Of a stretch of 64,000 nt of DNA, positions 2,356 to 63,382 are shown in pieces. The stretch lies in assembly GCA_037447655.1 (NCBI GenBank), contig JBBHKE010001628.1, positions 124,001 through 188,000 of the forward strand, read 5' to 3'. Position 1 is the stretch's first letter; every line of letters begins with the position of its first letter. Below the pieces are notes generated by a model. It searched no databases and was not told the DNA's origin. It was given only the letters and a program-made list of their open reading frames with translations. Source of the stretch: Zygnema cylindricum (lineage: Eukaryota > Streptophyta > Zygnematophyceae > Zygnematales > Zygnemataceae). The translations under genes and the position numbers were made by a program.

Positions 2356-2922
2356 ATGAGGGAAACAAGTGCTTTTGTGAATGAGGGACAAGATTTGACC
2401 GGTGACAAAAGGCTTACACCTTCTGTCAACGAATTCATTTACTTACCGACTATCTATGTTTTTTGGAATATGGTGAAAGAGGAAGGAAGGAGAAAATTTG
2501 CTGTCACCGAAAATGGAGTGGAGAAAGAGATAACAAAAAAAGATTTGGTTATGGTTTCCAGTGACAGATTGGTGAGTGACACAAAAAAAGGGGTTACTGA
2601 AATAGGAGTTAAAGGAAGTGAAGGTCACTCCAAAGTGGAAGTGGAAGGAACTGAAAATAGTGAGGTCACCGAAGATAGTGTGGAGAAAGTAGAGAGTGAA
2701 AAAGACTCGGTGTTTGAGAGTCTCTCTTGTGATAAATTGGTGTGTGAAAATGACTTACAAGAGGATGAAACTCTTGAAGCAAGGGGGGTAAAAGGAAGTG
2801 CAATACACTTAAAATTAAATGCACAATATTCTTTAGATATGGAGAAAACTGAATTTAAAGCAAAAGTTAGAGAAAGGCAAAGAGAAGATGAGAGAAAAAT
2901 TAGAGTAGGGGGGAAGATGTAA
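2356..2922 (+). CDS. Charged internal ORF of element I, function unknown
   Basis: A 188-residue open frame downstream of the gag-like part, very rich in Glu, Lys, Val and Ser, with repeated 'VTE..VEK' segments and no recognisable domain. A related, more damaged version follows the second gag copy at 3862-4320. No protease, integrase or reverse transcriptase motif is present. It is probably the C-terminal extension of the element's single reading frame or non-coding filler in a non-autonomous element. Confidence 0.35.
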   Translation: MRETSAFVNEGQDLTGDKRLTPSVNEFIYLPTIYVFWNMVKEEGRRKFAVTENGVEKEITKKDLVMVSSDRLVSDTKKGVTEIGVKGSEGHSKVEVEGTENSEVTEDSVEKVESEKDSVFESLSCDKLVCENDLQEDETLEARGVKGSAIHLKLNAQYSLDMEKTEFKAKVRERQREDERKIRVGGKM

Positions 2923-3128
2923 GTGGTAAAAGATAGAGTAGTAGAAGGGGGGATGAGATTAAAAAGAGAGTAGAAGAGAAACGGAAAGAGATTGAAAACG
3001 AAATTTAAGTCAAAAGAGGTATAGATTTCTTATAACACGTAAATTAAAATTCACATAACGTGAAGGAAAATGGGGGGAACGAAGTTCTCAAAGTAGGAGA
3101 ACATTCAGTAAAAGTGTGTGGTTAAATA

Positions 3129-4101
3129 GTGTTCTCTCTGAGAGTTTGTGGCTCAGAAAAAGTGAGAGATGAAAGAGGTGTGATAGAAGCCACTGGAGTG
3201 ATAAAAGTCAAGGAAGGTGAAGGTGAAACCTCACTGGAAGTGAAGGAAATTGAGGATAAAGTCATTGGGGAAAAAAACACAGNNNNNNNNNNTTTGAATA
3301 TAGGTTTTTCAAATCACCGTGATGATTTGGTCACTATGTTCCCATGTAGGTATTCAGAGACACCCTTGTATCACTGGTTTAGTAGTGCCACTAAACTTTT
3401 TGGATATAAGTTTGTAGGCGGAAGCATGGTGGAATATTCTACTGGTATAGAAAATATGTTTGCAGATAATGCTTTGGCAGGAGGAAGATTTACAGATGCA
3501 CAACAAGTTGTCATATTAATGAGAGGCTTACTTAGTGACTGTAGAAATGCAACAAATAGACTCGCTCAAATTGATAAAAAGGATTGGAACTTAATCCATG
3601 CAATCCACATAGTGTTAGATGAAAAAGATAGTAAAAAAAAAAATTGAAAGGAATATGAAGGTCTTTAAGTCACAGTTTCAAAAAATTAGAGGTAACAGTA
3701 TGTCCGAAAATTGACCTAAAATTTGTTTTTACTGTAATGATTTAGGACATACCTTCAGGGTATGTCCATCATATAAAAGTGCATGCGTTAAAGGAAAATT
3801 CATAAATAGATGGGACAACAACCGAGTTTAACCCTCAATAAGGAGGGAAAGAAGTGCTTTTATGAGTGAGGGACAAGACTCAACCGATGACAAAAGGCTT
3901 ACACCTTCCGTCGATGAATTCATTTACTTACCGACTATCTATGTTTTCCGGAATATGGTGAAAGAGGGAGGAAGGGGAAAAAAATTTGTCACCGAAAATG
4001 GAGTGGAGAAAGAGGTAATAGAAAAGGATTCGGTTACTATCAATGTTTCCTGTGACAAATTGGTAAGTAACACAAACTTACAAAAAAAAAAGGGTTATTG
4101 A
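3129..4101 (+). pseudogene. Second, duplicated gag-like unit of element I
   Basis: Positions 3345-3647 repeat 1865-2155 nearly base for base in places (SSATKLFGYK.VGGSMVEY). The knuckle region repeats near 3720-3790, and 3862-4101 repeats 2370-2560. The whole unit lies about 1.48 kb after the first. The copies differ at many positions, so this is an old duplication and not a simple assembly doubling, although a 10-N gap sits just upstream at 3283-3292. Stops and shifts near 3648 and 4101 break it. Confidence 0.55.
3283..3292. other. Assembly gap (10 N)
   Basis: Ten unresolved bases lie between the two gag-like copies of element I. The run length may be a placeholder, not a measured distance. 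Confidence 0.99.
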
Positions 4102-4464
4102 AATAGGAGTTGAAGAAAGTGAAGGGCACCCAGAAGTGGAAGTAAAAGGAACTGGAAATAGTGTGGTCACCGAAGATAATGTGGAGAAAGAAGAGGGTGA
4201 AAAATATTTGGTTTTTGTGACTCTTTCTTGTGATAGATTGATGTGTGTAAATGACTTACAAATCGAAGAGATTCTTGAAGAAGGTAGAGTTAGAGAAGTA
4301 AACTAAAAATTGGCAGCAGAATATTCTTTAGATATGGAGAAAATTGAACTAAAAACAAAACTTAGTGAAGGGCAAAGAGAAGATGACAGAAAATTAGAGT
4401 AAGGGAGGAAGATGATGAGAGAAAAAATGGTGAATTCACATAAGATAGGGAATTAACATCGGAG

Positions 4465-18356: not shown

Positions 18357-20770
18357 GTGGAATACTCTCTCACTTCACAGCAAGCCTAGCTTAGGCCTAC
18401 CTCTTACAAAGACATCCTGCATAGTTGGCTTAGTAAGCATGTCAGCTGCTTGCTCTAGAGTAGGAACAAAGACAAATTCAAGTTTCTTCTCTCTCACTAA
18501 ATCTCGAATAAAATGCCACTGAATTTTGATATGTTTAGTCCTTTTATGAAATACAGGATTTCTGATCAGTGCCATATAACCCATGCTATCAGAAAATACT
18601 TTCATACATCCAAATGAAATGCCTTACTCTCCGAGCATTTCTTTCACCCAAACTGCAACTTTGACGCATGACATGCTGACATATATTCGGCCTGTGTAGA
18701 GCTTAGGGCCATAATCGGCTGGAGCCTGAACTCCATGATATAGCAACTCCACCGAATATAAATATATATTCAGAAGTTGATTTTTCGGTATCATAATCTC
18801 CTCCCCAATCCGCATCACATATTCGGCCTGTGTATAGCTTAAGGCCACAATCGGCTGGAGCCTGGAACTCCATGATATAAATGCATATCCGGAAGTTGAT
18901 TTTCCGGGATCATAATCTCCTCCCCATTCCGCATCACAGTAGCCAAAACATTCCAAATCTTCATTTGATTGAAACACCGCTCCGAGACTGATCGTGCCAA
19001 CCTAATAACGGAAGATACGTTTCACCGCCTTCGAATACGATTTCTTTCGTGCTTGGCAATGCTTGCTGACAAAAGAAACTGCAGCACAAACAGCAGCAGA
19101 AATATCTGAACGCGTTCCCACACTCAAATACATCAAACTGCCGATTGCTTCCCGATATGACACATTAACCGTCTCCAAATTTTCCAACTTATAATATTGC
19201 ACTTTCGGATCTTAAGGAGTCGAAAGTGGTTTAGCATCAGACATAGAAAATCGTGCTAAAACCTCTTTGCAATATTGCTAATGACCGAGCTTGATGCATC
19301 CAGATGCATCGCGAATAACTTCAATTGTTAAAATATATTTGACTTCTCCGAATCCGTCACTTTAAAATGTTGTCGCATAAATGCCTTTAAATCCATGATC
19401 AAAATGAATCTATCCGAAGTCATGATGAAGTCATCAACATAATGAAAATATCACTTGATTCTCACCTTCACCATTCACATAAACACTGGAATTCGACGTA
19501 GACAGAACAAAACCGAAATCAATTAACACTTTATGAAGTCTCAAATACCACGTTATCGGGGCTTGCTTGAGCCGATATAAAGACTTCTGAAGTCTCCACA
19601 CAATACCAGGTTGAGAAGCCACCCCCTCCAGAACTTTCATATATACTTTCTCTTTAAGCTCACCATTCAATAAAGCAGTCTCCACATCCATTTGATCGAT
19701 GTGTTTCTTACTAGCGGTTGCCAAGGCCACAATTATTCTCAAAGAATCAAACATAACGACGGGAGCATAGGTTTCAGTATAATAAACCCCCCCTCGCTGC
19801 TGAAACCCTTTACACACCAATCTCGTTTTATACTTTATCACCTCACCAGACGCACCTGTCTTTGTCTTGAATACCCATTTGGCGTCAATAGCTTTCTTAC
19901 CTGATGGTAATTTTTACCTCTTAAGAACTCCGATTATCAACAATTGATTTATATTATTTTTCCCAAGCAAACTTCCACTTAGTTTCCCACTCACTAGAAT
20001 TGTGAGCCTCCGAATAAGATTGAGGATCTTCGGAACTAGAAATTGTGTCGTTAAAGTAATTAGAGTTCGAAACATCTCCACCAAGCCGATCATATGATAA
20101 TCTGGCCGATTTCTTTCCCTTCGTCTCACGAGTACTTCACCAAACCACAGTCACATCTTCTTCTTTGTCATTTTCTTCCCTTGCTGACGGTAAGCTACCT
20201 TTTGATTTAAATATGGACTGATTTCTTACTGAAGACCAAAAACTCAAAATCCCATCACTTCGGACATCGGAATCTGATTTTTGAATTGGAACAAACTGAT
20301 CGAACTTCACTTTGGTAAGAGGAAATTCTTCCTCATTGGAATCCGATTCCTGCAAATCCGAATTTTCTTCCACTTCATGTTTCTCTTCGAAATCTAAATC
20401 CTTTTGTACTTTCCCAGCCGATTCCGTTTCGGATTTAAGATCCTCGTGGAAATCAACATTCCGAGATTCAATCACCGCTCTCTTACTCGGACCATACACA
20501 CATTACAGGCTCCCTTTGGTGCTATGCCCCACAAAGATTCCCGTCCAACTCCTTGCAGAAAATTTCCCCGTCCTTTGTGTACGATCAACATAGACGGTTG
20601 CCTTACATCCTTGAATGCGTAAGTGCCGAACGGACGACAAAATCCCACTCCACAACTCATCCAGGGTCTTGTCGCCCGAAATTGCAATCAACTGCCAGTT
20701 GCAAATGTAATTGGTGGTGAGAATGGCATCTTCCCACAAGAATAAATTTTGCCCACTACTATGTATCATG
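18357..20770 (-). pseudogene. Pol (integrase C-end, RT, RNase H) of a second copia lineage
   Basis: Reading from 20770 downwards: the end of integrase (WTGIFVGHSTKG-like, 20503-20769) and an acidic linker (20137-20499). Next comes RT with LVCKGFQQRGGVYYTETYAPVV, QMDVETALLNG and YRLKQAP (19434-19841); the catalytic YVDD block is disrupted by a shift near 19430. RNase H pieces follow (CDAEWGGD near 18940, HIKIQWHFIRD and ADMLTK near 18430). Several stops and frameshifts, plus a ~125-bp internal duplication, make it non-functional. Motif wording differs from elements A-H, so it belongs to another copia clade. Everything upstream of integrase is lost at the gap. Confidence 0.75.
18660..18935. repeat. 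~130-bp tandem duplication inside RNase H
   Basis: The segment 'tattcggcctgtgta...tcctccccaatccgcatcaca' is present twice with scattered differences (about 18680-18820 and 18822-18935). It doubles part of the RNase H region. Confidence 0.6.
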
Positions 20771-20966
20771 NNNNNNNNNNNNNNNNNNNNNNNNNNNNNN
20801 NNNNNNNNNNNNNNNNNNNNNNNNNNNNNNNNNNNNNNNNNNNNNNNNNNNNNNNNNNNNNNNNNNNNNNNNNNNNNNNNNNNNNNNNNNNNNNNNNNNN
20901 NNNNNNNNNNNNNNNNNNNNNNNNNNNNNNNNNNNNNNNNNNNNNNNNNNNNNNNNNNNNNNNNNN
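20771..20966. other. Assembly gap (196 N)
   Basis: Unresolved bases separate the copia integrase end on the left from the left mirror arm on the right. The mirrored sequence runs right up to this gap. Confidence 0.99.
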
Positions 20967-21119
20967 CTCTTTTAAGGCTCAGAACAACGAGCCTGATTTA
21001 TATTTTCTCTTAGTAACATTGTAACGTCATTGTCGTTAGTCAATAGTAAAGTTAAGAGAAAATTTTAAACTTTGCTGGAAGTAGACAGAGAAGTGAGGAG
21101 AGGATGAGAGAGGAGGGGA
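20967..21119. repeat. Left arm of a perfect 153-bp mirror repeat
   Basis: Read left to right, this arm equals 21298-21450 read right to left, base for base, without complementing (position p pairs with 42417-p; checked through the full arm, e.g. ctcttttaaggctcagaac at both ends). It is therefore neither a direct nor an inverted repeat. Confidence 0.9.
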
Positions 21120-21138
21120 CAGTGAGGAGAGGAGTAGA

Positions 21139-21252
21139 ACCATAGGTGATTACAAGCTGTGCTTCAGGTTTGTATGAATCAATAACATCAGGAATAATCT
21201 TCCAGTGCTCAAGACGCGAGATCAGATTGTGCTCAACTTGGTGAGAAGCCAT
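21139..21252 (-). CDS. PEBP-family protein, N-terminal exon only
   Basis: 38 codons from ATG 21252 (M-A-S-H-Q-V-E-H...) carry the signature of the phosphatidylethanolamine-binding protein family N-terminus: a helix, then K-I-I-P-D-V-I-D-S-Y-P-like wording and L-V-I-T-Y-G, where family members run into the first beta strand. PEBP proteins bind anionic phospholipid head groups and regulate kinases or, in plants, flowering. The rest of the protein (the DPDxP and GxHR motifs) is absent. After Gly38 the frame runs into CT-rich sequence, probably an intron or the artefactual mirror arm 19 bases on. The exon lies wholly inside the unique 178-bp core between the mirror arms. Confidence 0.5.
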
Positions 21253-21297
21253 GGCTATACTTTTTGTGAGTTTGTAGGTGCGTTGAGCGAGAAGGAG

Positions 21298-21450
21298 AGG
21301 GGAGGAGAGAGTAGGAGAGGAGTGAAGAGACAGATGAAGGTCGTTTCAAATTTTAAAAGAGAATTGAAATGATAACTGATTGCTGTTACTGCAATGTTAC
21401 AATGATTCTCTTTTATATTTAGTCCGAGCAACAAGACTCGGAATTTTCTC
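21298..21450. repeat. Right arm of the perfect 153-bp mirror repeat
   Basis: Exact reversal of 20967-21119. As it lies upstream of the PEBP start codon, with CT-rich 5'-UTR-like sequence on the minus strand, this arm is the likelier original and the arm next to the gap the likelier copy. Confidence 0.9.
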
Positions 21451-22080
21451 CGGTCAGTTGAAAAATTACATTTGTTGCAGACGGGTCAGCATTCGCCACG
21501 TTGAAACAAGGGGAGGATGTAATATTTGACAGCCACGTGGAGCAATTAAACAGGAAAGAAGCGACAATCTCAGGTCAAAGGAAGGTTTACATATCCACGT
21601 GGCGGTATATTTTTTTGTGAAGTGCAGGTTCACCTGAAGCATCTGTGTGGCGAAATTAACTTCTGTGACCACGTGTCAGTCTATCTATGTTTGACGTGGC
21701 TTTAAAATATGAACTTGGGCAGGAGGATCCGTCGATTTCCAATTTTTAAGAAGAAAACGACCACTAGATACAAGGCCGTACACTAGATCTGCACAGATCT
21801 CGCTAGGTTCATGCATTTGCACTAGACAATAGTACAGTTTGCAACACTTTTTGTCTTTTTCCAGAGTACGAGAAACCTATTATGACTTTATCGGTACCCT
21901 GACCTAAATGGATACACGTGTCAAAAATACATTATAAAATGCTTTGCTATAGACGTGTGAAACGTGGAAAAAAACAGAGAACCTTCGGCTACTGATGCGT
22001 AGCGTATCGTAAGAAGTAACAATTCGATACGCCACAAGCCAGTAACGTAGCGCAAAAATGTCAAATTTTTAAAAATGTAA
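21451..22080. other. Intergenic, nothing recognised
   Basis: Contains several 'ccacgtgg'/'cacgtgtc' E-box-like words (21532, 21595, 21669, 21916), which might be promoter elements of the PEBP gene on the minus strand; this is inference only. No gene seen. Confidence 0.3.
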
Positions 22081-35401: not shown

Positions 35402-36580
35402 AAGCAAAAACAGATTAGAATGGGAGCAGTTGATAGCGTTGACTTTGTAGAAATATGTCCTCTTCCCCTTCTGTCAGAGATATTTTTCCAAGCTTCGTAC
35501 GGAGGGCAAATTAAAACTCTCTTTTTGTTTTCAACTCTGTCAACTAAGTCTGTTGAAGTAGTAAGACGAGTTCGTTCTTTGAATCTAACTAAGTTCCGAC
35601 TTAAAAATTTCGATCTAGAAGAATATGAGATCCTTTTAGCTCATGCAGTCGAACTCACACCGAATATTGAAGAAATAACATTTGGTAGACTAGTTGGCCC
35701 TAATAAAACTGTCCTTTTATACTGGTCAAAAATTGTTAGCACCAAACTAGTCACGTTAAATGCACGAGATTTCGATTTCACGACAACCAGGATGAATGCT
35801 TTAAAGAAATTTAAGAATTTGAGACGTTTATCTTTCTACTATTGTTCGATTGATGTATCACAATCCACTTTTATCGATACAGTTGAAGAGTTTTCTTTTC
35901 GTATGGTAGTCTTTTTCCCCAACGAATTTGGAATTTATACTCCAAAAAATTCCTCGGCTTCGAGTTCTCCACTATGAGGATAGTTACGGTTATTCCTTCA
36001 GTATCAAGTCACAGTCCTTGACCTCACTAACCATCAAATCAACGGCAAATACTATCGATATTGATACACCTAATCTTTTGGCACTAGATTTACATTGTCT
36101 GTCGGCAAACATTACTTTTTGCAAAGTCAAAAACTTGCTTAGTATGAGACACTCGAGTTCAGAGGAGCCGCCGATTGTTACTATGGAGAATCCTTTGCCT
36201 TCGCGACTTATAGATCTTTGTTTCTTTGATTCTCCAAGCAATACTTCGAGAGTCTTATAAGAAGCAGTTCTGCCAACTTAAATTCCGTAACAATTACAAA
36301 CTTTTGTACTACCTACCCTCCTTGTCCACTACCACATGTGCAACTCTTGCGTTTCTCAAAAATTTCCATGGCGGTGGAGTCAATCAAGCGCATACAACCT
36401 TGGTTGAAAGCTTGTCCTACTTTGAAGGAAGTGGACCTCAATTTTGGCTATGATTTTGAAAATACCTTAGATGTTGGAATCACCATCGAGTTGATGGAGG
36501 TGGTGACGATGATGCAATATTTGTATCCGACGGTCAAGTTCAATCTCACGGGGTTGTGTTTTGTATGGATATTGACATAA
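35402..36580 (+). pseudogene. LRR/F-box-like gene copy B, frameshifted
   Basis: Three frames join into one protein-like run. 35402-~35935 begins with an F-box-like L-P-L-L-S-E-I-F and has LRR-like wording (RVRSLNLTKFRLKNFDLEEY, LTPNIEEITF, LRRLSFYYCSID). ~35928-36235 holds IPRLRVLHYEDSYGYS and IDIDTPNLLALDLHCLSANI. 36236-36570 has FESLIRSSSANLNSVTITNF, then WLKACPTLKEVDLNFGYDF and ends PTVKFNLTG. The shifts lie near 35930 and 36238. F-box/LRR proteins serve as substrate adaptors of SCF ubiquitin ligases, but the F-box match is weak. The start is not fixed; an ATG lies at 35420. Confidence 0.5.
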
Positions 36581-38765: not shown

Positions 38766-38775
38766 NNNNNNNNNN
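38766..38775. other. Assembly gap (10 N)
   Basis: Ten unresolved bases just before gypsy-derived sequence. Confidence 0.99.
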
Positions 38776-39450
38776 AAGGACAAGGAGTTGTACGTGAAAA
38801 AGGAGAGGATACCCGATGCAGAAGGAGAGGATACCCGTTGCAGAATCACACGCTAATTACGTCGGTTACAACCGTAGGTAGTACGGAGGGGAGGAAGATC
38901 CTCAGTGCGAGAGTTGGGAGCCAGTGGATCAAGAAACCCTTGACGTTTAACCTTCCCATTATAAAATAAATACAACAATACACCGATGATGTGAGTCACT
39001 TCTACTTTTACACCGATGATGCGAGTCACTTCTACTTCTACATCGTGCTCATCAGTAGTGTCTTTCGAAAGCTGTATGTTTCATTGATCATTTGTGAGAG
39101 CTTCTTGCTTGTACTAATTCTGTGATGACTACTCGTGCTACATCTTCATCTTCACTGAGCGTAGTAGCCACATTTTCATCTTCACTGAGTGTAGTAGCCA
39201 CATAACAACATAAATAAAATATTACCCTTCCAATTTGCAGTTCCCAAAGAACTAGGTGACCGAGGGTTGAGAGCGTGACTCCTAGAAGGAGGGGAGGCAT
39301 GATGGATGCCAACATTGGCTGCATTAATCGCACACTAAGACGTTGCCCATAGGAGAGGAAGACGTAGCCCATAGGAGAGGAAAAAGTGCATGTTGAGGAA
39401 CAGGAAAGAGGGTCGAAAAAGTAAGTTAGGTGGAAAGTGTGTTCGTCTTC
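38776..39450 (-). repeat. Probable gypsy 3' end/LTR region with short repeats
   Basis: Lies downstream (minus sense) of the gypsy integrase. It has doubled short units: aggagaggatacccg (38800/38824), acaccgatgatgngagtcacttctac (38980/39010) and catc/ttcactgagngtagtagccaca (39150/39178). LTR ends not resolved. Confidence 0.35.
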
Positions 39451-39453
39451 CAA

Positions 39454-40430
39454 TCACAAAAGATAGCAAGGGGCTACATTGATTTGATTCTCTTTGATTT
39501 TCCGGCCATCTTTTCCCTCCAAGGTAATGACTAATTTGTTAGAAACATCCACCACTCTCAAAATTTTCTTTGAACAGAAATATCCAGCGTGTCTTTTTTT
39601 TATGTTGCATCCTATACACAAACTCCTTGGGCATAAATTATCGTTGCCGCGGGACATAATTCGCGCTCCGAAGTTTGGAATACCATAGCTGATCTTGGTG
39701 CTCAGCTTTTTGTAAGTTCCCCATGGCGAGTGGTATTTCCTGGTGAAATGCATTGCCTCTATCGACAATCATTTTCTCGACTGTCCCCTTGTTATCCATC
39801 TCCAAAAAGACAACTGCTTGGGCAGAGGCAGCGTCGCGTAGGATGGGATGTCCTCCAAACAAGACAAAATAAGGACTATAGGAATGGAGGGAAGCCTGCT
39901 TGCTGAATATGTACCCCATGGCAATCCAAGGAACCCTTTTGTACCACTCCCCCAAATCTTCTCCAACAACATTTTTTCGCACTGACCGCTTCACTTTCTG
40001 TATGCACCTTTTGCCTAACGATCGGCTTGGGGGTGGTCACGGTTGGTCAGCTGGTGGTGAATAAAGCACAATTTCAAGATGTTGGCAAATTTTCCGCCAA
40101 ACTTTGAGCCGTGGTTAGTCATGATTTTTGTCGGTGCCCCGAATTCGGAAAACACTCTTTGCACGAATGCGTCTACAATATATTTGGACTAATTCTGGGG
40201 TAGAACCACCAATTCTCTCCATTTTGAAAAATGTTTTATCATGACCAATACAAAGCGGTTCCCTTTTGTGTTGGTTGGGAGAGGTCCCAAAATGTCCAGC
40301 GACCATCGATAAAACATTACCCTGATTGGAATAGAATGTAGCTCGGTCTCTCCCTTTTTGCAAAGGTAGCGTTCAGTCGGTCACAAGGAGGGCAAGTTTG
40401 TACAATTCAGTTGACTTGGTCAAAATAAGC
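39454..40430 (-). pseudogene. Ty3/gypsy integrase, decayed
   Basis: Minus-strand pieces read as integrase: LDILGPLPTNTKGNRFVLVM (first catalytic Asp), FSEFGAPTKIMTNHG (second Asp replaced by Asn), and a HPQAD block after which the third catalytic residue is lost. The C-terminal part follows: WYKRVPWIAMGYIFSKQASL and SYSPYFVLFGGHPIL (typical of plant gypsy integrases). Stops at ~40190 and 40016 and frame changes break it. The remaining downstream frame (39454-39768) resembles the chromatin-proximal tail only loosely. Confidence 0.65.
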
Positions 40431-43446: not shown

Positions 43447-44870
43447 TAGGTTTTCAAATTAAAACTGAATCGTGACAATACTATTGATCGGTATAAGCCA
43501 CGGTTAGTGGCCAAAGGATTTACTCACAAAGAGGGAATAGACTAAAAAGAAACCTTTGCTCCAGTCGTTACATTTCCCTCGGTCCGGATACTTCTTAGTC
43601 TGGCAGCTATAGTTACATGGAAGTACATCAGATGGATTTCAAAACTGCCTTCTTGCATGGAGAACTAGAGGAGGAGATCTTCATGCGACAGCCGGAAGGA
43701 TTCGTGGAACACGGAGAAGAAAGTAAGGTATGCCGGCTGATCAAATCTATCTATGGTTTGAAACAGGCACCCAAACAATGGAACAAGAAACTTGATGAGT
43801 TCCTTACTTGTCTAGGATACATTCGGATCAGTTCAGATCATTCAATTTATGTTTTTGAAGATGAGAAACGTGTCATCTTTATTGCAACTTACGTTGATGA
43901 TTTGCTTGCTATGAGTGAGTCAATGGATAAAATCAACAAACTAAAAGCAGATCTGAAGGGAAGATTTGAGATGAAAGACATGGGGGAGGCAAGATATATT
44001 TTTGGAATACAAGTAGAGAGAGAAAGAGAAAAGAGAATAATTAGACTAACTCAGAAAGAGGCTATTAGAAACATGTTGGAAAAATTTCAGATCGACAAAG
44101 CCAACAACTATACAACTCCCATGGATCTAAAGAAGGGAAGTGAGGGGAGTGAGAAAGGAGACATCATAATTCTAGATGATGAACTAGGTCCAGAAGAGAG
44201 GAAGCTTATGCAAACTATTCCACACAGACAGGTAGTGGGCAATCTGATTTATTTTATTAATTACACCAGACCGGATTTGGCAGCAGTTGTAGGAGTGCTA
44301 AGTATGAGTCAAAATGCTCCTACCAAAAGGGATTGGGAAATAACTAAGAGGATTATTAGATATCTCATAGGAACTAGGGAACTATGGTTGTATCTAGGTG
44401 GGGAAAATACTGACATCACCACTTGGAGTGATGCCAGCTATGGGGATGCTCCGATGGGAAGATGTACATCTGTGTTGTATGTGGGGAATGGTGCTTGTTG
44501 CTGGAGCACTAAGCAACAAAAGGTCATTGTTTAGTCCACCATGGAGGTTGAGTATATGGCATCTTGCTCAGTTGTGAAGGAATTGATGTGGGTCAAATCC
44601 TTGCTTGGTGAATTGAGGCATTTTAAGAGCGGAATTCAAAAAATATTATGTGATAATCAAGCAACAATTACAATTGCTGCTAATTGTAAACATCACTTTA
44701 AAGCAAAGAACATGGATATCACACTTAGGTTTGTCACGGAAAAGGAGGAGAACAAAATAATAAGTCTAGAATATAGACCAGACAGTGATCTGGTGGTAGA
44801 CATGATGACAAAGCTTGTGCCCTCTCCTAAATAAATTTTTTGCAGAGAAAAATGTCGACTTAAATTTAAA
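43447..44870 (+). pseudogene. RT and RNase H fragment of element F (plus strand)
   Basis: Runs from the RT N-terminus (VFKLKLN..., LVAKGFTHKEGID then a stop, [18 protein letters not shown]) through MDFKTAFLHGELEEEIFM, YVDDLLAMSES (catalytic motif intact), RNase H (TTWSDASYGDA) to VVDMMTK. Stops at ~43544 and ~44533 and a shift near 43612 break it. It is in opposite orientation to the LTR pieces on its left and to the surrounding elements. Confidence 0.75.
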
Positions 44871-44892
44871 AGCGACTAGAAAATAAAGGGAG

Positions 44893-45663
44893 TGTTGAAA
44901 TGAAAGGTTTACTTAGTTATTTTCTAGGTAACTTAATTGATTTAAATAGGAGCAAGAAAAATCAGAGGCAGGTTGCTTCTAAGTTCTTCTCTAGCCCCCA
45001 TACTTGCCGTAGTCAATGAAGGCTATAAAGGAAGCTAAAGCCATGGCTGCATATGCTTCCCTTAGAATTTGAAGGCAGTCATCCCTAAACATCCCTAAAT
45101 TAAGGTTGATATCAATCGGACAGCGGAGTAAAAAGTCGGGATTACGGAATGGACGATTTGGCAGTTTGCGGTCACACCCATAACAGGTGACACATGGAAA
45201 CATGACATTGGAAAGCAACATCTACGGTACATACCATGGCGAACCCGGATATGGCAGGCGTCATCTTCTTGGCCATGCTGTACAATGGCCGTACGAAAAG
45301 TACTCCGGGCCAAATACCTTCTGACTGTACAGTAATTTCATTAGCTCCGTACTTCAGTATAGAGGGATTAGAGAGGGGTTTAGGACTTAAGAAAATTAGA
45401 GGTAGCCGCCTCTCTCTCTCAGAGAGCTTTTAAATAAAATGTCATCTTTGACCATTGATAATTAACTGCTCAGAGGAGCAAATTCAAGGATTTTTTTTTG
45501 CAACGACTCACGAGAGTTTGCTCTTCCAAAGGGCGCAGTCTTGTCAGTCTGTATTCTATCAGGGTGTTGTTAATACTCACACAAAGACTACGAGATTGAG
45601 GTTATCCTAGAGGCTTTTGCTAAGCTGTCTACTCTGAGTACTAATAGAGGTCTCAGAGTTGTA
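44893..45663 (+). repeat. Type-I LTR, 3' LTR of element F (771 bp, deleted)
   Basis: Preceded by the PPT aaataaagggag (44881-44892). Starts TGTTGAAATGAAAGG and ends CAGAGTTGTA. It lacks the tRNA-like module, so it is shorter than the ~1-kb copies. A TATA-like taaataaaa lies at 45431-45439. It is followed by integrase sequence of element E in opposite orientation. Confidence 0.7.
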
Positions 45664-46324
45664 TTTCCTTCATCCATGACAACTAGATGTTTTACCAAAA
45701 CTATATCTTGTTTAGCTAAGTCATAAACTCTATATCCCTTGACATCCTCATCATACCCCAAGAATATCTTGGTTTCCATTTAGCATCTAGTTTCCAGTTT
45801 TTCTTATCTGTGTCAACACTGAAAACTTGACTAGCGCATACTTTCAAGTGAGAAATATCCGGTTTCCTTCCAACCCATCTCTCATAAGGTCTCATTTCTT
45901 TAATGGATGTAGTGAGAACTCTATTCTTAATGTAGTTAGCACAGTTCATGGCTTCTGCCCAAAATCTTCCTCTTATTTTCTTATCTGCCAACATACTACA
46001 CACACTATCTCCAAAGTCCGATTCAACCTTTCTGCTACCCCATTTTGTTCTAGATTATTCGGTTCAGGTTTTTGATGCTGAACTCCCTCATCTCTCAAGT
46101 ATTCCTCAAACTTGTTAGAGGTGTACTCTCCCCCATTATCACTCCTTATTTGCTCAATGGGGGTTCTGTGCAACTTCTCACTCTAGGCTTCGTATTCTTT
46201 GAAGTACTTTGGTGTTTCAGACTTTGTTTTTAGGAAGCAGACTCTAGAATATTTGGACCAGTTATCAGTAATTGTTAGCATATACCTCTTCCCCCAAACC
46301 GAAGATACTCTTGCTAGTCCCCAG
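45664..46324 (-). pseudogene. Integrase core of element E (left part)
   Basis: From 46324 down: WG-L-A-R-V, TITDNWSKYSRVYFL (first Asp), IRSDNGGEYTS (second Asp), LEQNGVAERLNRT (Glu), then the C-terminal part up to HLVVMDEG, where element F's LTR cuts it. A shift near 46000 and stops near 46180 and 46075 break the frame. Its upstream half lies at 53755 on the other side of element D. Confidence 0.75.
46320..46324. other. Target-site duplication of element D, left (cccag)
   Basis: cccag here and cctag at 53755-53759 (one difference) flank element D. Joining the two sides restores the integrase reading H-T-D-I-W-G of element E. Confidence 0.65.
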
Positions 46325-47322
46325 TGCAACTGTGAGACCTCCATTGGTACTCAGAGTAGGCAGCTTGCTAAAATCCTGTAGGATAACCTCAGTTGTTTAA
46401 GCTTTGACTAAATATTGCTGACACCTTGAAAGAATACAGACTGACCAAACTGTACCCCTTGAAAGAGTTGACTCCCTTGAGTATGCCACAAAAAGAATCC
46501 TTGAATTTGCTCCCCTGAGCAGTTAATAATCAATGGTCAAAGATGACCTTTTATACAAAAAGCGCTCTGGAAGAGAGGCTGCTACCTAATATTTTCTAAG
46601 TCCTGAACCCCTTTCTTATCCCTCTACTACTGAAGTACGGAGCCAATCAATTAAGTGTAAAGTACAAAAAAATACTTGGCCCGAAGTACTTTCTGTACTC
46701 CAAGTGTACGACATGGCTAAGAAGGTGACGCCTGCCATTTCCGGGTAAGCCATTGTATGTCTCAGAGATGCCGCTATCCAATGTAATGTTGCCACGTGTC
46801 ACTTGGCGTGGGTGGGGCCGCAAACCACCAAATCGTCAATTTCGCTATACCGGCTTCTTTCTCCGCCGTTGGATTGATATCGACCTTAATTTATAGCCGC
46901 TAAAATACAAGCAGTACTTTTAGATGTGATTTTGTCTAACTATAAAAGTACTTGTGGTCCGTTCGTCAGTTAAATGAACTTTCCTATTTGTATATCTTTA
47001 AGTAGCTATCATACCCTATATACCTTGACGCAGGTGCTAGGCTATATGGTAACGACGCTAGTCTATTCAGACGGACGGTAGGTACCAGGATCAAATCATT
47101 GGTCCGTTAACCTTTTTGGTAAGTTTAACAAACGACTGCGTTTTGACTCTAGGAGAACCATAGGCAGCCATGGCTGTAGCTTCTGCTTCAACCTCCAATG
47201 ACTACAAAAAGTATGGGGCTAATGAGAGAAGTTAGAAGCAGGCTGCCTCTGCTTGTCTTTCCTCATTTTAGATTACTAAAGAAACCTAGAAAATACATAA
47301 GAAAAACCTTTTAATTTCAACA
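46325..47322 (-). repeat. 3' LTR of element D (998 bp)
   Basis: Minus strand starts TGTTGAAATTAAAAGG (47322), ends ACAGTTGCA (46325) and is preceded by the PPT AAAAATAGGAG. TATA-like GTATAAAA lies at 46549-46556 (rc), a CCAAT site at 46633. The degenerate tRNA-like module is at 47030-47105. Confidence 0.8.
47030..47110 (+). other. Degenerate tRNA-like module in LTR (element D, 3')
   Basis: Corresponds in position to the better modules of elements B and E; the B box is reduced to aggatcaaatcattgg. The same form is in the 5' LTR at 53345-53420. Confidence 0.35.
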
Positions 47323-47705
47323 CTCCTATTTTTTTCTAGTCATGTTTTAATTTAAGTCTTCACTTCTCTCAGCAAAATATTAATTTAGGAGAAGGTACAG
47401 GCTTTGTCATCATGTCTGCCACCATTTCACTCTTTGGTCTATATTCTAGACTTATTATTTTGTCCTCCACCTTTTCCCTAACAAAGCTAAGTCTGATATC
47501 CATGTGCTTTGCTTTGAAGTGATGTTTAGGATTAGCATCAATTGTAATTGCTACTTGATTATCACACCATATTTTTTGAATTCCAATCTTAAGATGTCCA
47601 ATTCACCAAGCAAGGATTTGACCCACATCAATTCTTTCATAGCTCAGCAAGATGTCATATACTCAGCCTCCATAGTGGATTGAGTAATGACCTTTTGCTG
47701 CTTAC
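47323..47705 (-). pseudogene. RNase H end of element D
   Basis: Minus strand gives Q-K-V-I-T-Q-S-T-M-E-A-E-Y-M-T-S then KHMDIRLSFVREKVEDK and MVADMMTK, ending just before the PPT. It is separated from the rest of RNase H by the solo LTR at 47706-48669. Confidence 0.7.
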
Positions 47706-48669
47706 TGCTGGTTTCATAGCTTTATCCTCAGTAGATAAGGCTGTGAGGGGAGGTTTGTAACTTAGAATATTTTTGGGTCATTGAAGTTGTAATACTTACC
47801 TTGTATAGTGTGATAGTGGATGAGTAACTCTGAGTGTAGTGTACTGTCTAATAAACACGCGTCCGTATGAGGGACAATCAAGAAAATGAGGAATGAATCT
47901 TGACACATGTAACACATCGAACAAAGTTAAATCGGCGCATCAAACGGACGAAAAGCAATACTAGACATATAGGAAAACAATTGTGAAGAATAAATACAGG
48001 ACGACGATATGAACTGAACTAACGATTACGATTTGAGTGTGGACCACAGGTGACGAAGAACTTCGTAAGCACTCCAAATATTCGTACAAGATTAACCACA
48101 GTCGGTTGGACTTATTTGACTACTGCTGACTAAGCAGCAACATTGTGTGTACGGCGTCAAATGAAGAAAACATGAACAAAAGGTTTCTGGAGTTAAGTGA
48201 ATTTAAATTTAGTATGACACACCTTGATTTAGGTTAGTGGTAAACATGATTTTTTGGAAGTACATTAGGTACTCTGTCGTACTATAGTATAGTACGACTA
48301 TCCGAATACTTCAATCTGATTAGTCAAAAGGATCAGTTGATAGACACTCAGTGTATAAAAGTTTAGGACTTACAAATATTCTGTTAACCAGTTTTGAGAT
48401 AATGCAAGTCTGAATGCAATTATTGTGAAACTTGCAGATGTCATATCTTATGGTTTACTGATCAATTGTGCTGTAATTTTGGATATTGACAGTGTGTATG
48501 CTGGTGATATTCTATGCTGAATTTGGTGTAATTTGTACTTTTGGATCAGGTTTTATAGTGAGTGAAACATCAGTGTTTGATTGGTTTCTTGGTTAGCTTA
48601 TGTGTAAGTTATGTCTACTTCTACCACTACTGCTGCAGCTCCACCTGTACTTGTAGTCATAGAACAACA
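47706..48669 (+). repeat. Type-II solo LTR (964 bp) inside element D
   Basis: Starts TGCTGGTTTCATAGC and ends CATAGAACAACA, flanked by the exact duplication cttac (47701-47705 and 48670-48674). Its last 59 bases open with ATG 48611 and read M-S-T-S-T-T-T-A-A-A-P-P..., a longer gag start than in other type-II copies but in the same phase (59 = 2 mod 3) and with the same Q-Q end. Confidence 0.85.
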
Positions 48670-48674
48670 CTTAC

Positions 48675-49725
48675 TACTCTAGCAACAAGCACCATTCCCC
48701 ACATACAACACATACTCAGATGTACATTTTCGCATTGGAGCATCCCTATAGCTGGCATCACTCCAAGTCGTGATGTCAGTATTTTTCCCACCCAGATACA
48801 GCCATATATCTCTAGTTCTTATGAGATATCTTAGGACCCTCTCAGCAGATTCCCAATCCTTTTTGGTAGGAGCATTCAAACTCCAACTTAGCACTCCTAC
48901 AGCTACTGCCGAATCCAGCTGGTAATATTTATGAAATAAATCAGACTGCACACTACCTGTTTGTATGGGATGTCTGTATGAACTTCCTCTCTTCTGGACC
49001 TAGTTCATCATCTAGAATAAAGATATCTCCTTCCTCATTCCCCTCACTTCCCTTCTTTAGATACGTGGGAGTTGTACAACTGTTGGCTTTGTCCATCTGA
49101 AATTTTTCGAACATGTTTCCAATTGCCTTTTTCTGAGTTAGTCTAATTATTCCCTTTTCTCTATCTCTCTCTACTTATATTCCCAAAATATATCTTGCCT
49201 CACCCATGTTCTTCATCTCAAATCTTCCCTTCATATCTGTTTTTAGTTTGTTGATTTTCTCCATTGACATACACAGAACATGCAAATCATCAACGAAAAT
49301 TCGAATAAAGATGACACCTTTTTCATCTTCAAAAACATATGTGAACTGATTTGAATGTATCCAAGACCAGTAAGGAACTCATCAAGTTTCTTTTTCCATT
49401 GTCTGGGCGCCTGTTTCAAACCATAGAAAGATTTGATCAGCCGGCATACCTTACTTTCTTCTCCTTGTTCCACGAATCCTTCCGGCTGTCGCATGAAGAT
49501 CTTCTCCTCTAGTTCTCCATGCAAGAAGGCAGTTTTGATGTCTATCTGGTGTACTTCCATGTTTTCTACAATTGCCAGACTCAAAAATATCCTAACCGAG
49601 GGAAATCTGACAACCGGAGCAAAGATTTCTTCGTAGTCTTTTCCTTTTTTCTGAGTAAAACCTTTAGCCACTAACTGGGCCTTATACTGCTCAATAGTAT
49701 TGTCAGGATTCACTTGAAAACCCAC
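48675..49725 (-). pseudogene. RT and first part of RNase H of element D
   Basis: RT from NPDNTIEQYKAQLVAKGFTQ through VHQIDIKTAFLHG and YGLKQAPRQWKKKLDEF (49725-49300). The YVDD site is changed (F-S-L-M-I-C region, 49290-49270) by frame decay. RNase H TTWSDASYRDA (48760 region). Several shifts. Confidence 0.7.
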
Positions 49726-60766: not shown

Positions 60767-63382
60767 CTAGTCACTTTTCAATTTTAATCCACAGTTTTCT
60801 CTGCAATAAATCAACTTAGGGGAAGGCACTGCTTTTGTCATCATGTCTGCAATCATTTCTCTATCAGTTTTATGAACCAGTTTAATAATTTTATTTTCTA
60901 CCTTCTCTCTCACAAAGCTTAGTCTAATATCCATATGCTTAGCTTTGAAGTGATGTTTCGGATTAGCTGCAATCGAGATAGCAGCTTGATTATCACAAAA
61001 AACATTTTGAGTTCCAAACTTCATGAACCCAAGTTCTTCAAGAAGAGATTTAACCCACATTAATTCTTTGGTGGCAGCACAAGAAGCCATGTATTCAGCC
61101 TCCATAGTGGACTGAGCAACTACTTTTTGTTGCTTGCTACTCCAACAACATGCACCGGATCCAATTTGCAACACATATCCAGTCGTACACCTCCTTAAAG
61201 GCACATCTCCATAACTGGCATCACTCCAAGTGGTGATATCAGTGTGCTCCCCTCCCAAATGCAACCATAACTCCCTTGTCCCCACCAGATACCTCATCAC
61301 CCTTTTGGCAGCCTCCCAATCTCTCTTTCTTGGTTCATTTAGATTTCTACTAAGGACACCTACAGCTGCAGCTATATCCGGACGGGTACAGTTCATAAAA
61401 TAAATTAAACTGCCTACAATCTGCCGATAAGGGATATTTTCCATAAATTTTCTTTCTATCTCGTCCATCTCATCATTAATGATGAATATTCCTCCCTCTT
61501 CACTCCCCTCACTCACTTTCTTCAAATCCATGGGAGTAGAACATCCGTTTGCTTTCTCCATTTGAAATTTTTCTAGCATATTACCGATTGCTTCTTTTTG
61601 AGTGAGTCTTATAATTCTATTCCCTCTATCTCTCTCCATCTGAATTCCCAAAATGTACTTTGCTTCTCCAAGATCTTTCATATCAAAACTGCTTCTAAGA
61701 TCCCGTTTTAGTTTGTTAATTTTATCTAAGGACTTGCTTAAGACCAACAAATCATCAACATAAATAGCAATAAATATCACTCCATTCTCATCCTCAAATA
61801 AATATATAGAGTGATCTGAACTAATTCTGATATACCCCAAACCGGTCAGAAATTCGTCGAGCTTTATATTCCACTGTCGCGGGGCTTGCTTAAGCCCATA
61901 GAGTGATTTTATCAGTTTGCAAACTTTGTTTTCTTCCCCACTTTCCACGAATCCTTCCGGTTGCCTCATGTAAATTTCTTCTTCCAACTCTCCGTGCAAA
62001 AAGGCAGTTTTAATATCCATCTGGTGGATTTCCATATCCTCTGCTGCGGCTATACTTAAAAGGATTCTAACAGAAGGAAATCTGACTACAGGTGCAAAGG
62101 TTTCTTCGTAGTCTATCCCCTCTTTTTGTGTATAACCTTTTGCAACTAACCTAGCTTTGTACCTCTCAATGGTATTATCCGGGTTTAATTTAAGTTTAAA
62201 CACCCACTTACATCCGATCGGTTTTCGGTCCGGTGGACAATCTACCAACTCCCATGTGTTGGCTTCCATGATAGAGGCCATTTCTTCATTTATAGCTGTG
62301 ATCCACCGGCTACTTTCTGGAGTGTTTATGGCCTCTAAGTATGTTTGAGGTTCATCTGGGTGAGACATCTTTGTGAGTTGGTTATTTACTTGTCTTTCTT
62401 GAAGTCGTTTACTACTTCTTCTTCCCCCTTCAAAATCGGACGCCGGTATGGAAGGCATCCTTGGGTTTCGTTTTGGGAGATTTTCAGCTTCCCTATCTTC
62501 CAATTCCGGTGTCTCATCAAATTCCTCATCGGTTTCCACTTCGTATTGTGGCGTTGCCTCGGATGTTGTCCTTTCCTCCTTCTCCTTTGTTAAATCTGCA
62601 GATTTTTCTTTTTCTCCCTCTTCCTTCTCTTCATTTTCAAAGTCAAAGTCAGAAAACTGATCCGTTTCAAATCTGATTTTGACTTCCTTATTATATTTGA
62701 ATGGATCAATGGACTTCTCTTCATTCATCACCACTATGTGTTTTACCAAAATTATATCTCTCTTTTTCAAGTCATACACTCGGTATCCTTTTGTGCACTC
62801 ATCATATCCTACAAGATATCCTGGTTTCCCTCTTCCCTCTAACTTCCATTTAGTCTTATCGGAATCCAAACTGTAGACTTGACTTCCGAACACTCTCAAA
62901 CTAGACAAATCAGGCTTTCTTCCTGTCCACCTCTCATACGGAGTTTCCTCCTTATTTGCTGAAGTTAGGACTCTATTTTTGATGAAATTAGCATAGTTCA
63001 TAGACTCAGCCCAAAACTGCAGCCCTATCCTCTTATCACTTAACATATTTCTAGACATATCTCCTAAAGTTCTATTAACTCTTTCTGCTACTCCGTTTTG
63101 TTCCGGATTATAGGGAACAGTTTTCTCATGATGAATTCCTTCTTCTTTAAGATATTCTTCAAAATCCCTTGAGGTGTATTCTTTCCCATTATCACTTCTT
63201 ATCTCTTTTATTGAGGTTTCATGTAGCTTTTCACTCCATACTTTATACTCTTTGAAACATCTTAATACCTCTGACTTATGTCTGAGAAAGTATACCTTCG
63301 TGTATCTAGACCAATCATCTGTGATAGTTAACATCCATCTCTTCCCCCCCATGTGAAGCATACCTAGCAGGTCCCCAAACAT
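60767..63382 (-). CDS. Pol of element H: integrase, RT, RNase H (871 codons open)
   Basis: The longest open frame in the window. Integrase core: TITDDWSRYTKVYFL (about residue 20), IRSDNGKEYTS (~62), NPEQNGVAERVNRT (~100), then GKPGYLVGYDECTKGYRVYD and an acidic linker ending RRSSKRLQERQVNNQL. RT: KARLVAKGYTQKEGIDYEET, QMDIKTAFLHGELEEEIYM (~455), YGLKQAPRQWN, YVDDLLVLSKS (~540). RNase H: TTWSDASYGD (~715), STMEAEYMASC (~760), DNQAAISIAA, KHMDIRLSFVREKVENK, ending just before the PPT. All catalytic residues seen are kept. The ATG at 63382 is only the first Met after a frameshift; the true polyprotein starts upstream, beyond the window. Confidence 0.85.
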   Translation of the reverse strand: MFGDLLGMLHMGGKRWMLTITDDWSRYTKVYFLRHKSEVLRCFKEYKVWSEKLHETSIKEIRSDNGKEYTSRDFEEYLKEEGIHHEKTVPYNPEQNGVAERVNRTLGDMSRNMLSDKRIGLQFWAESMNYANFIKNRVLTSANKEETPYERWTGRKPDLSSLRVFGSQVYSLDSDKTKWKLEGRGKPGYLVGYDECTKGYRVYDLKKRDIILVKHIVVMNEEKSIDPFKYNKEVKIRFETDQFSDFDFENEEKEEGEKEKSADLTKEKEERTTSEATPQYEVETDEEFDETPELEDREAENLPKRNPRMPSIPASDFEGGRRSSKRLQERQVNNQLTKMSHPDEPQTYLEAINTPESSRWITAINEEMASIMEANTWELVDCPPDRKPIGCKWVFKLKLNPDNTIERYKARLVAKGYTQKEGIDYEETFAPVVRFPSVRILLSIAAAEDMEIHQMDIKTAFLHGELEEEIYMRQPEGFVESGEENKVCKLIKSLYGLKQAPRQWNIKLDEFLTGLGYIRISSDHSIYLFEDENGVIFIAIYVDDLLVLSKSLDKINKLKRDLRSSFDMKDLGEAKYILGIQMERDRGNRIIRLTQKEAIGNMLEKFQMEKANGCSTPMDLKKVSEGSEEGGIFIINDEMDEIERKFMENIPYRQIVGSLIYFMNCTRPDIAAAVGVLSRNLNEPRKRDWEAAKRVMRYLVGTRELWLHLGGEHTDITTWSDASYGDVPLRRCTTGYVLQIGSGACCWSSKQQKVVAQSTMEAEYMASCAATKELMWVKSLLEELGFMKFGTQNVFCDNQAAISIAANPKHHFKAKHMDIRLSFVREKVENKIIKLVHKTDREMIADMMTKAVPSPKLIYCRENCGLKLKSD

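Follow-up and report, generated by a model that had tools for sequence, protein, structure and literature searches.

Does a 153-bp mirror repeat that lies against an assembly gap, with the start of a PEBP gene between its arms, belong to the genome, or does it exist only in the text of the assembly? We addressed this question in the window, that is, the whole stretch of 64,000 nucleotides that was analysed (contig C1222, positions 124001-188000, in an assembly of 353 Mb and 2689 contigs), and in further loci of the same assembly.

The mirror beside gap 2 and a second copy of its locus

The mirror was confirmed base by base. All 153 of the pairs formed by position p and position 42417-p agree, 20967-21119 being identical to 21298-21450 read backwards, exactly as the sequence-only reading had claimed. 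The first mismatch falls at 21120 and position 20966 is an N; the description of the left arm as abutting a gap of 196 N was likewise correct, 20967 being the first base after the N run. The features of this region, in which g2R denotes the mirror on the right of gap 2, are as follows.

20771..20966: assembly gap 2, 196 N
20967..21119: false gap-side arm of g2R, 153 bp; the reverse, uncomplemented, of 21298-21450; not real sequence
21120..21297: spacer of g2R, natural, containing the start of the PEBP gene; 97.8% identical to L003 4842-5019 as written, no match when reversed
21121..21252, minus strand: N-terminal part of a PEBP (phosphatidylethanolamine-binding protein) exon, truncated at the false arm; from its translation and the relative in L003
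21298..21450: natural outer arm of g2R, upstream of the PEBP start codon, from which the reversed copy was made; relative on the plus strand at C486:49020-49172, 93%

The same genome holds a second copy of the PEBP locus, L003, which is the locus containing the C486 relative of the outer arm, and which has neither a gap nor such a mirror. Window positions 21120-22079 align forwards with L003 at 91%, the alignment starting exactly at the predicted breakpoint, 21120. The gap-side arm aligns with L003 only when reversed (93.5%), and then onto the place of the outer arm, which upholds the earlier warning that the left arm should not be trusted. Queried as written against the genome, the gap-side arm had a sole match, itself. 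The gap-side arm of g2R is certainly false; the mirror is genuine as a string of letters but not as DNA.

The L003 exon continues beyond the breakpoint seen in the window, and 101 aa read from it match the Pfam family PBP (PF01161) at 3.6e-9, a result that bears out the identification of a PEBP exon and from which we conclude that the PEBP gene in the window is truncated by the false arm. The 44 aa of the exon left in the window matched, by themselves, no Pfam family and no PDB chain, and a protein search with the 46-aa exon peptide found no candidate. To the left of gap 2, on the minus strand, positions 20401-20770 resemble, by eye, a decayed copia integrase fragment; the PEBP gene and a retrotransposon therefore seem to meet within the gap.

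Recurrence of mirrors at gap edges

A scan of the window for exact mirrors of at least 16 bases returned 17 pairs, the four longest of which (342, 289, 153 and 52 bp) all adjoin the window's three N runs; these four are the only mirrors longer than 24 bp. The earlier picture of a single exact mirror was thus right about its exactness and incomplete in extent, the other three lying at the window's two remaining N gaps. Both sides of the gap at 3283-3292 are mirrored, as are the right sides only of those at 20771-20966 and 38766-38775, with no mirror in the flanks left of gaps 2 and 3. The fifth-longest pair measures 24 bp; this pair and one of 22 bp arise secondarily from the false arms of gap 1, their partners lying in paralogues, and a 23-bp pair is the self-mirror of a simple repeat. 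A gapped search of the window for imperfect mirrors added just the gap 1 arms against their paralogues. The features at gaps 1 and 3 are these.

2578..2919: natural contig end on the left side of gap 1, from which the reversed copy derives; relative in forward orientation at 4080-4414, 81.6%
2920..3282: false block g1L (21-bp spacer plus 342-bp arm), a single reversed stretch; when reversed, 82% over 363 columns to 4080-4435
3283..3292: assembly gap 1, 10 N
3293..3344: false gap-side arm of g1R, 52 bp, right of gap 1; exact mirror of 3362-3413; when reversed, 93% to 1886-1931
3362..3413: natural outer arm of g1R, within a copia gag-like repeat; 93% to 1886-1931 as written
38766..38775: assembly gap 3, 10 N
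38776..39064: false gap-side arm of g3R, 289 bp, right of gap 3; exact mirror of 39118-39406
39118..39406: natural outer arm of g3R, partly in a dispersed repeat whose matches begin within the arm

When reversed, g1L matches L004 9129-9171 at 43 of 43 bases across its seam. The relative of g1R at 1886-1931 lies in an ORF, 1586-2131, that matches PF14223. The gap-side arm of g3R has 11 other matches when reversed and none as written in the sequence compared, which included seven loci fetched for matching this region. For 39065-39700, at least 40 further matches were obtained (40 of 632 candidates were scored), and all 40 begin at query positions 143-331, inside the arm, with 39 of them extending past the arm's end.

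The 153-bp mirror cannot be due to chance. When the window was simulated 100 times with a first-order Markov model, the longest exact mirror was 18.4 bases on average and at no time more than 29, and 60 control stretches of 1500 bases, drawn from parts of the window at a distance from its gaps, contained none longer than 23. Simple repeats, which form self-mirrors of up to 192 bases elsewhere in the genome, are not covered by these simulations and controls; the arms of this mirror do not consist of simple repeats.

The sequence-only reading had proposed a scan for more mirrors at N runs, which we ran on the window and on 32 further loci. An extra, non-random sample of 25 stretches of 10 kb (one the PEBP relative, eight neighbouring the window on C1222, a stretch of C450 picked after its gap had been seen, and the rest contig starts) made up, together with the search loci, these 32 loci, which comprise 262,528 known bases and four N runs; they exclude three loci that overlap the window (L001, L023 and L024) as well as L002, a part of L003, and they include an overlap of about 1.4 kb between L025 and L026. 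Three of the four N runs are touched by an exact mirror, of 110 bp in L011 and 98 bp in L032 (both on C450) and of 334 bp in L035 (C1222). The fourth, in L020 (C1800), has no mirror on its one visible flank; this run has a round starting coordinate, 7501, and may represent withheld sequence rather than a gap. Contig C450 itself opens with 9178 N (L011 1-9178), and the L011 mirror adjoins the end of this run, an odd arrangement for a scaffold start.

Window and loci together, six of seven N runs have at least one mirrored flank, as do seven of the 12 visible flanks, on two contigs (C1222 and C450). Since the other five visible flanks lack a mirror, the fault is not universal; the unmirrored flanks may never have been extended. 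Without filtering, the same sequence contains 117 two-arm mirrors of at least 30 bp, seven of which adjoin an N run. Among the remaining 110, the 18 longest all come from simple repeats in L009 and L017, and once simple repeats are filtered there are, among the matches listed, no two-arm mirrors of at least 30 bp away from gaps in the window and loci. The repeats in question (L009 7237-7432 and L017 2743-3048) are of the GAGAGG type, form exact self-mirrors of up to 192 bases and occupy gap-free sites. They are homopurine and, unlike the gap-side arms, of the kind that could form triplex DNA.

Orientation of the arms and origin of the mirrors

Relatives of all seven gap-side arms were sought in the window and in all loci except L001, L023 and L024. 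As written, none of the seven has a relative, one 30-bp purine-rich match of g2R being set aside; reversed, six of the seven do, in a tally that is partly biased, as L002, L003 and L025-L031 had been fetched for matching the outer arms of g2R and g3R, and from which the arms at L011R, L035L, g1L and g1R emerge free of that bias. The L032 arm has no relative in either direction in the window and loci searched. The two arms of a mirror are 100% identical, against 82% for the paralogues of g1L and 93% for those of g1R and g2R.

Base composition, scored with strand-symmetric Markov models, was rejected as a judge of the arms. It favoured the outer arm at four of four orders for g1L, where the paralogue in the training sequence perhaps helped, and for g2R; with g1R and g3R the sign flipped with the order. 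Calibrated at order 5, the method preferred the true orientation for 90 of 143 stretches when these were 52 bases long and for 118 of 134 when they were 342 bases long, a modest discriminating power.

Spacers separate the arms in all seven mirrors (17 to 178 bp); the five that could be oriented, at mirrors other than L032R and L035L, are of two kinds. Three are natural as written: that of g2R (97.8% to L003), that of g3R (83% over 48 bp to L027) and that of g1R (16 of 17 bases). The 21-bp spacer of g1L agrees with its paralogue at 19 of 21 positions when reversed and at five of 21 as written, and the L011R spacer has 25 short matches when reversed and none as written, no match spanning the seam between spacer and arm at L011R.

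The mirrors are almost certainly an assembly artefact, in which an extension, reversed and uncomplemented, was written beside gaps during gap filling. The earlier suggestion, that the right arm was written in reverse through an error of gap filling or string handling, is supported by the recurrence of the pattern at other gaps and by L003, which fits the arm only in reverse. In the mechanism that we propose, the extension of a contig end beside a gap would use a longer sequence R, either a read or a path from local assembly, which overlaps the contig by o bases and overhangs it by h. R would be reversed without complementing and the contig's own bases retained in the overlap, such that the h overhanging bases of the reversed string would be written beside the gap and the true overhang lost. 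The expected outcome is an exact mirror arm of length min(o,h) that touches the Ns, the axis of the mirror lying halfway along R; the spacer would measure |o-h| bases and would be natural as written if o>h, and natural only when reversed if h>o. For the 153-bp mirror this would mean o=331, h=153 and R=484.

This reversed writing of an overhang would explain both the contact of the arm with the gap and the two kinds of spacer, natural as written (g2R, g3R, g1R) or when reversed (g1L, L011R). Simulation of the fault reproduced arm, spacer and gap contact in 12 of 12 trials (arm lengths to within 4 bases, spacer lengths to within 8), and the case for the overhang model is strong. We infer that one filling program made this exact slip. 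The extension lengths implied by the seven mirrors are 705, 707, 631, 484, 337, 279 and 121. Two of these, 705 and 707, belong to g1L and L035L, and the implied contig overlap is 342 bases both at g1L (2578-2919) and, if o>h, at g3R (39065-39406); the recurring overlap of 342 and the lengths of 705 and 707 perhaps reflect a limit of the program.

Several other origins were weighed. That a tool simply appended the contig's own end, reversed, would also yield a mirror touching the gap, as it did in four simulated trials, but this predicts an unbroken mirror where all seven have spacers, and it cannot produce new backward sequence within spacers, as at g1L and L011R; we hold it to be very unlikely. 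Fold-back chimeric reads, arising from hairpins or whole-genome amplification, share with these mirrors two arms around a loop, and fold-back assembly chimeras the layout of arm, spacer and arm at contig ends. Their arms, however, are complemented (inverted repeats), and the arms here are not; the longest complemented match in the six window flanks is 20, with controls at 18 or less. Reversal of a string in colour-space data can yield a mirror on decoding, and a fault of decoding could on that principle have the observed form, but two other colour-space transforms gave matches of at most 14 (controls at most 18). An origin in fold-backs or in colour-space decoding appears extremely unlikely.

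A real mirror repeat, for instance one forming triplex or H-DNA, might halt assembly and so come to lie beside gaps, as hard-to-assemble structures might be expected to. Known mirror repeats of this kind resemble the present ones in having two arms that are alike in opposite directions on one strand, and two of the four window arms lean towards purine (0.70 and 0.59). The arms differ from such repeats in that their purine content ranges from 0.42 to 0.70, with no pure purine or pyrimidine run longer than 14 in the four window arms, in that they adjoin Ns, and in that the mirror is absent from the gap-free L003 copy. The gap-side arms as written moreover lack real relatives in the sequence compared, and seven different sequences would each have to be exactly reversed at a gap edge. 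The triplex alternative raised in the sequence-only reading thus finds no support, and we regard a real mirror repeat as vanishingly improbable.

Gap-filling programs and the consequences for gene models

Returning to the artefact, Pilon probably leaves gaps of 10 N by default, and the residual 10-N gaps here would agree with that; we treat Pilon as a lead only to the program used. In the published description of Pilon each flank receives a separate extension from its local consensus, and the gap is shrunk rather than closed (PMC4237348), a layout of flank-wise extension of an unclosed gap that is the same as here. The extensions treated in the passages concerned are correct ones, with 13 of 14 partial fills free of error in one test, and a reversed, uncomplemented extension is not mentioned there (PMC4237348). 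The program also has a mingap option (PMC7202002, PMC5765664). A literature search found no report of such a fault in the titles and abstract openings of the matches listed.

It is quite possible, although we would put it somewhat short of an even chance, that these mirrors represent a systematic and apparently undescribed class of fault, with non-biological sequence at many gap edges of the 353-Mb assembly and maybe in other public assemblies made with the same program. If so, a scan for exact mirrors touching Ns would reveal such assemblies. An exact two-arm mirror at an N run offers a sharp test at little cost for any assembly, and it shows which bases to mask; in the window these are 20967-21119, 2920-3282, 3293-3344 and 38776-39064. 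False arms damage gene models, as in the PEBP gene, which here loses its continuation; they create ORFs across gaps, and they are open to misreading as exotic DNA structures. A listed ORF of 172 aa (3129-3647) spans gap 1 and parts of both false arms beside it, and is an example of a spurious gene created by the fault.

Elsewhere in the window, copia-type sequence occurs twice, in opposite orientation, at 43639-49538, and includes exact inverted pieces, the longest of 37 bp, at separations of roughly 2.6-5.9 kb; these pieces are ordinary inverted repeats. A protein search with the ORF at 35420-35977 returned no relative. The copia ORF at 60767-63382 has 7776 relatives, the best at 67%, and among the 120 matches listed the organisms named are mostly plants.
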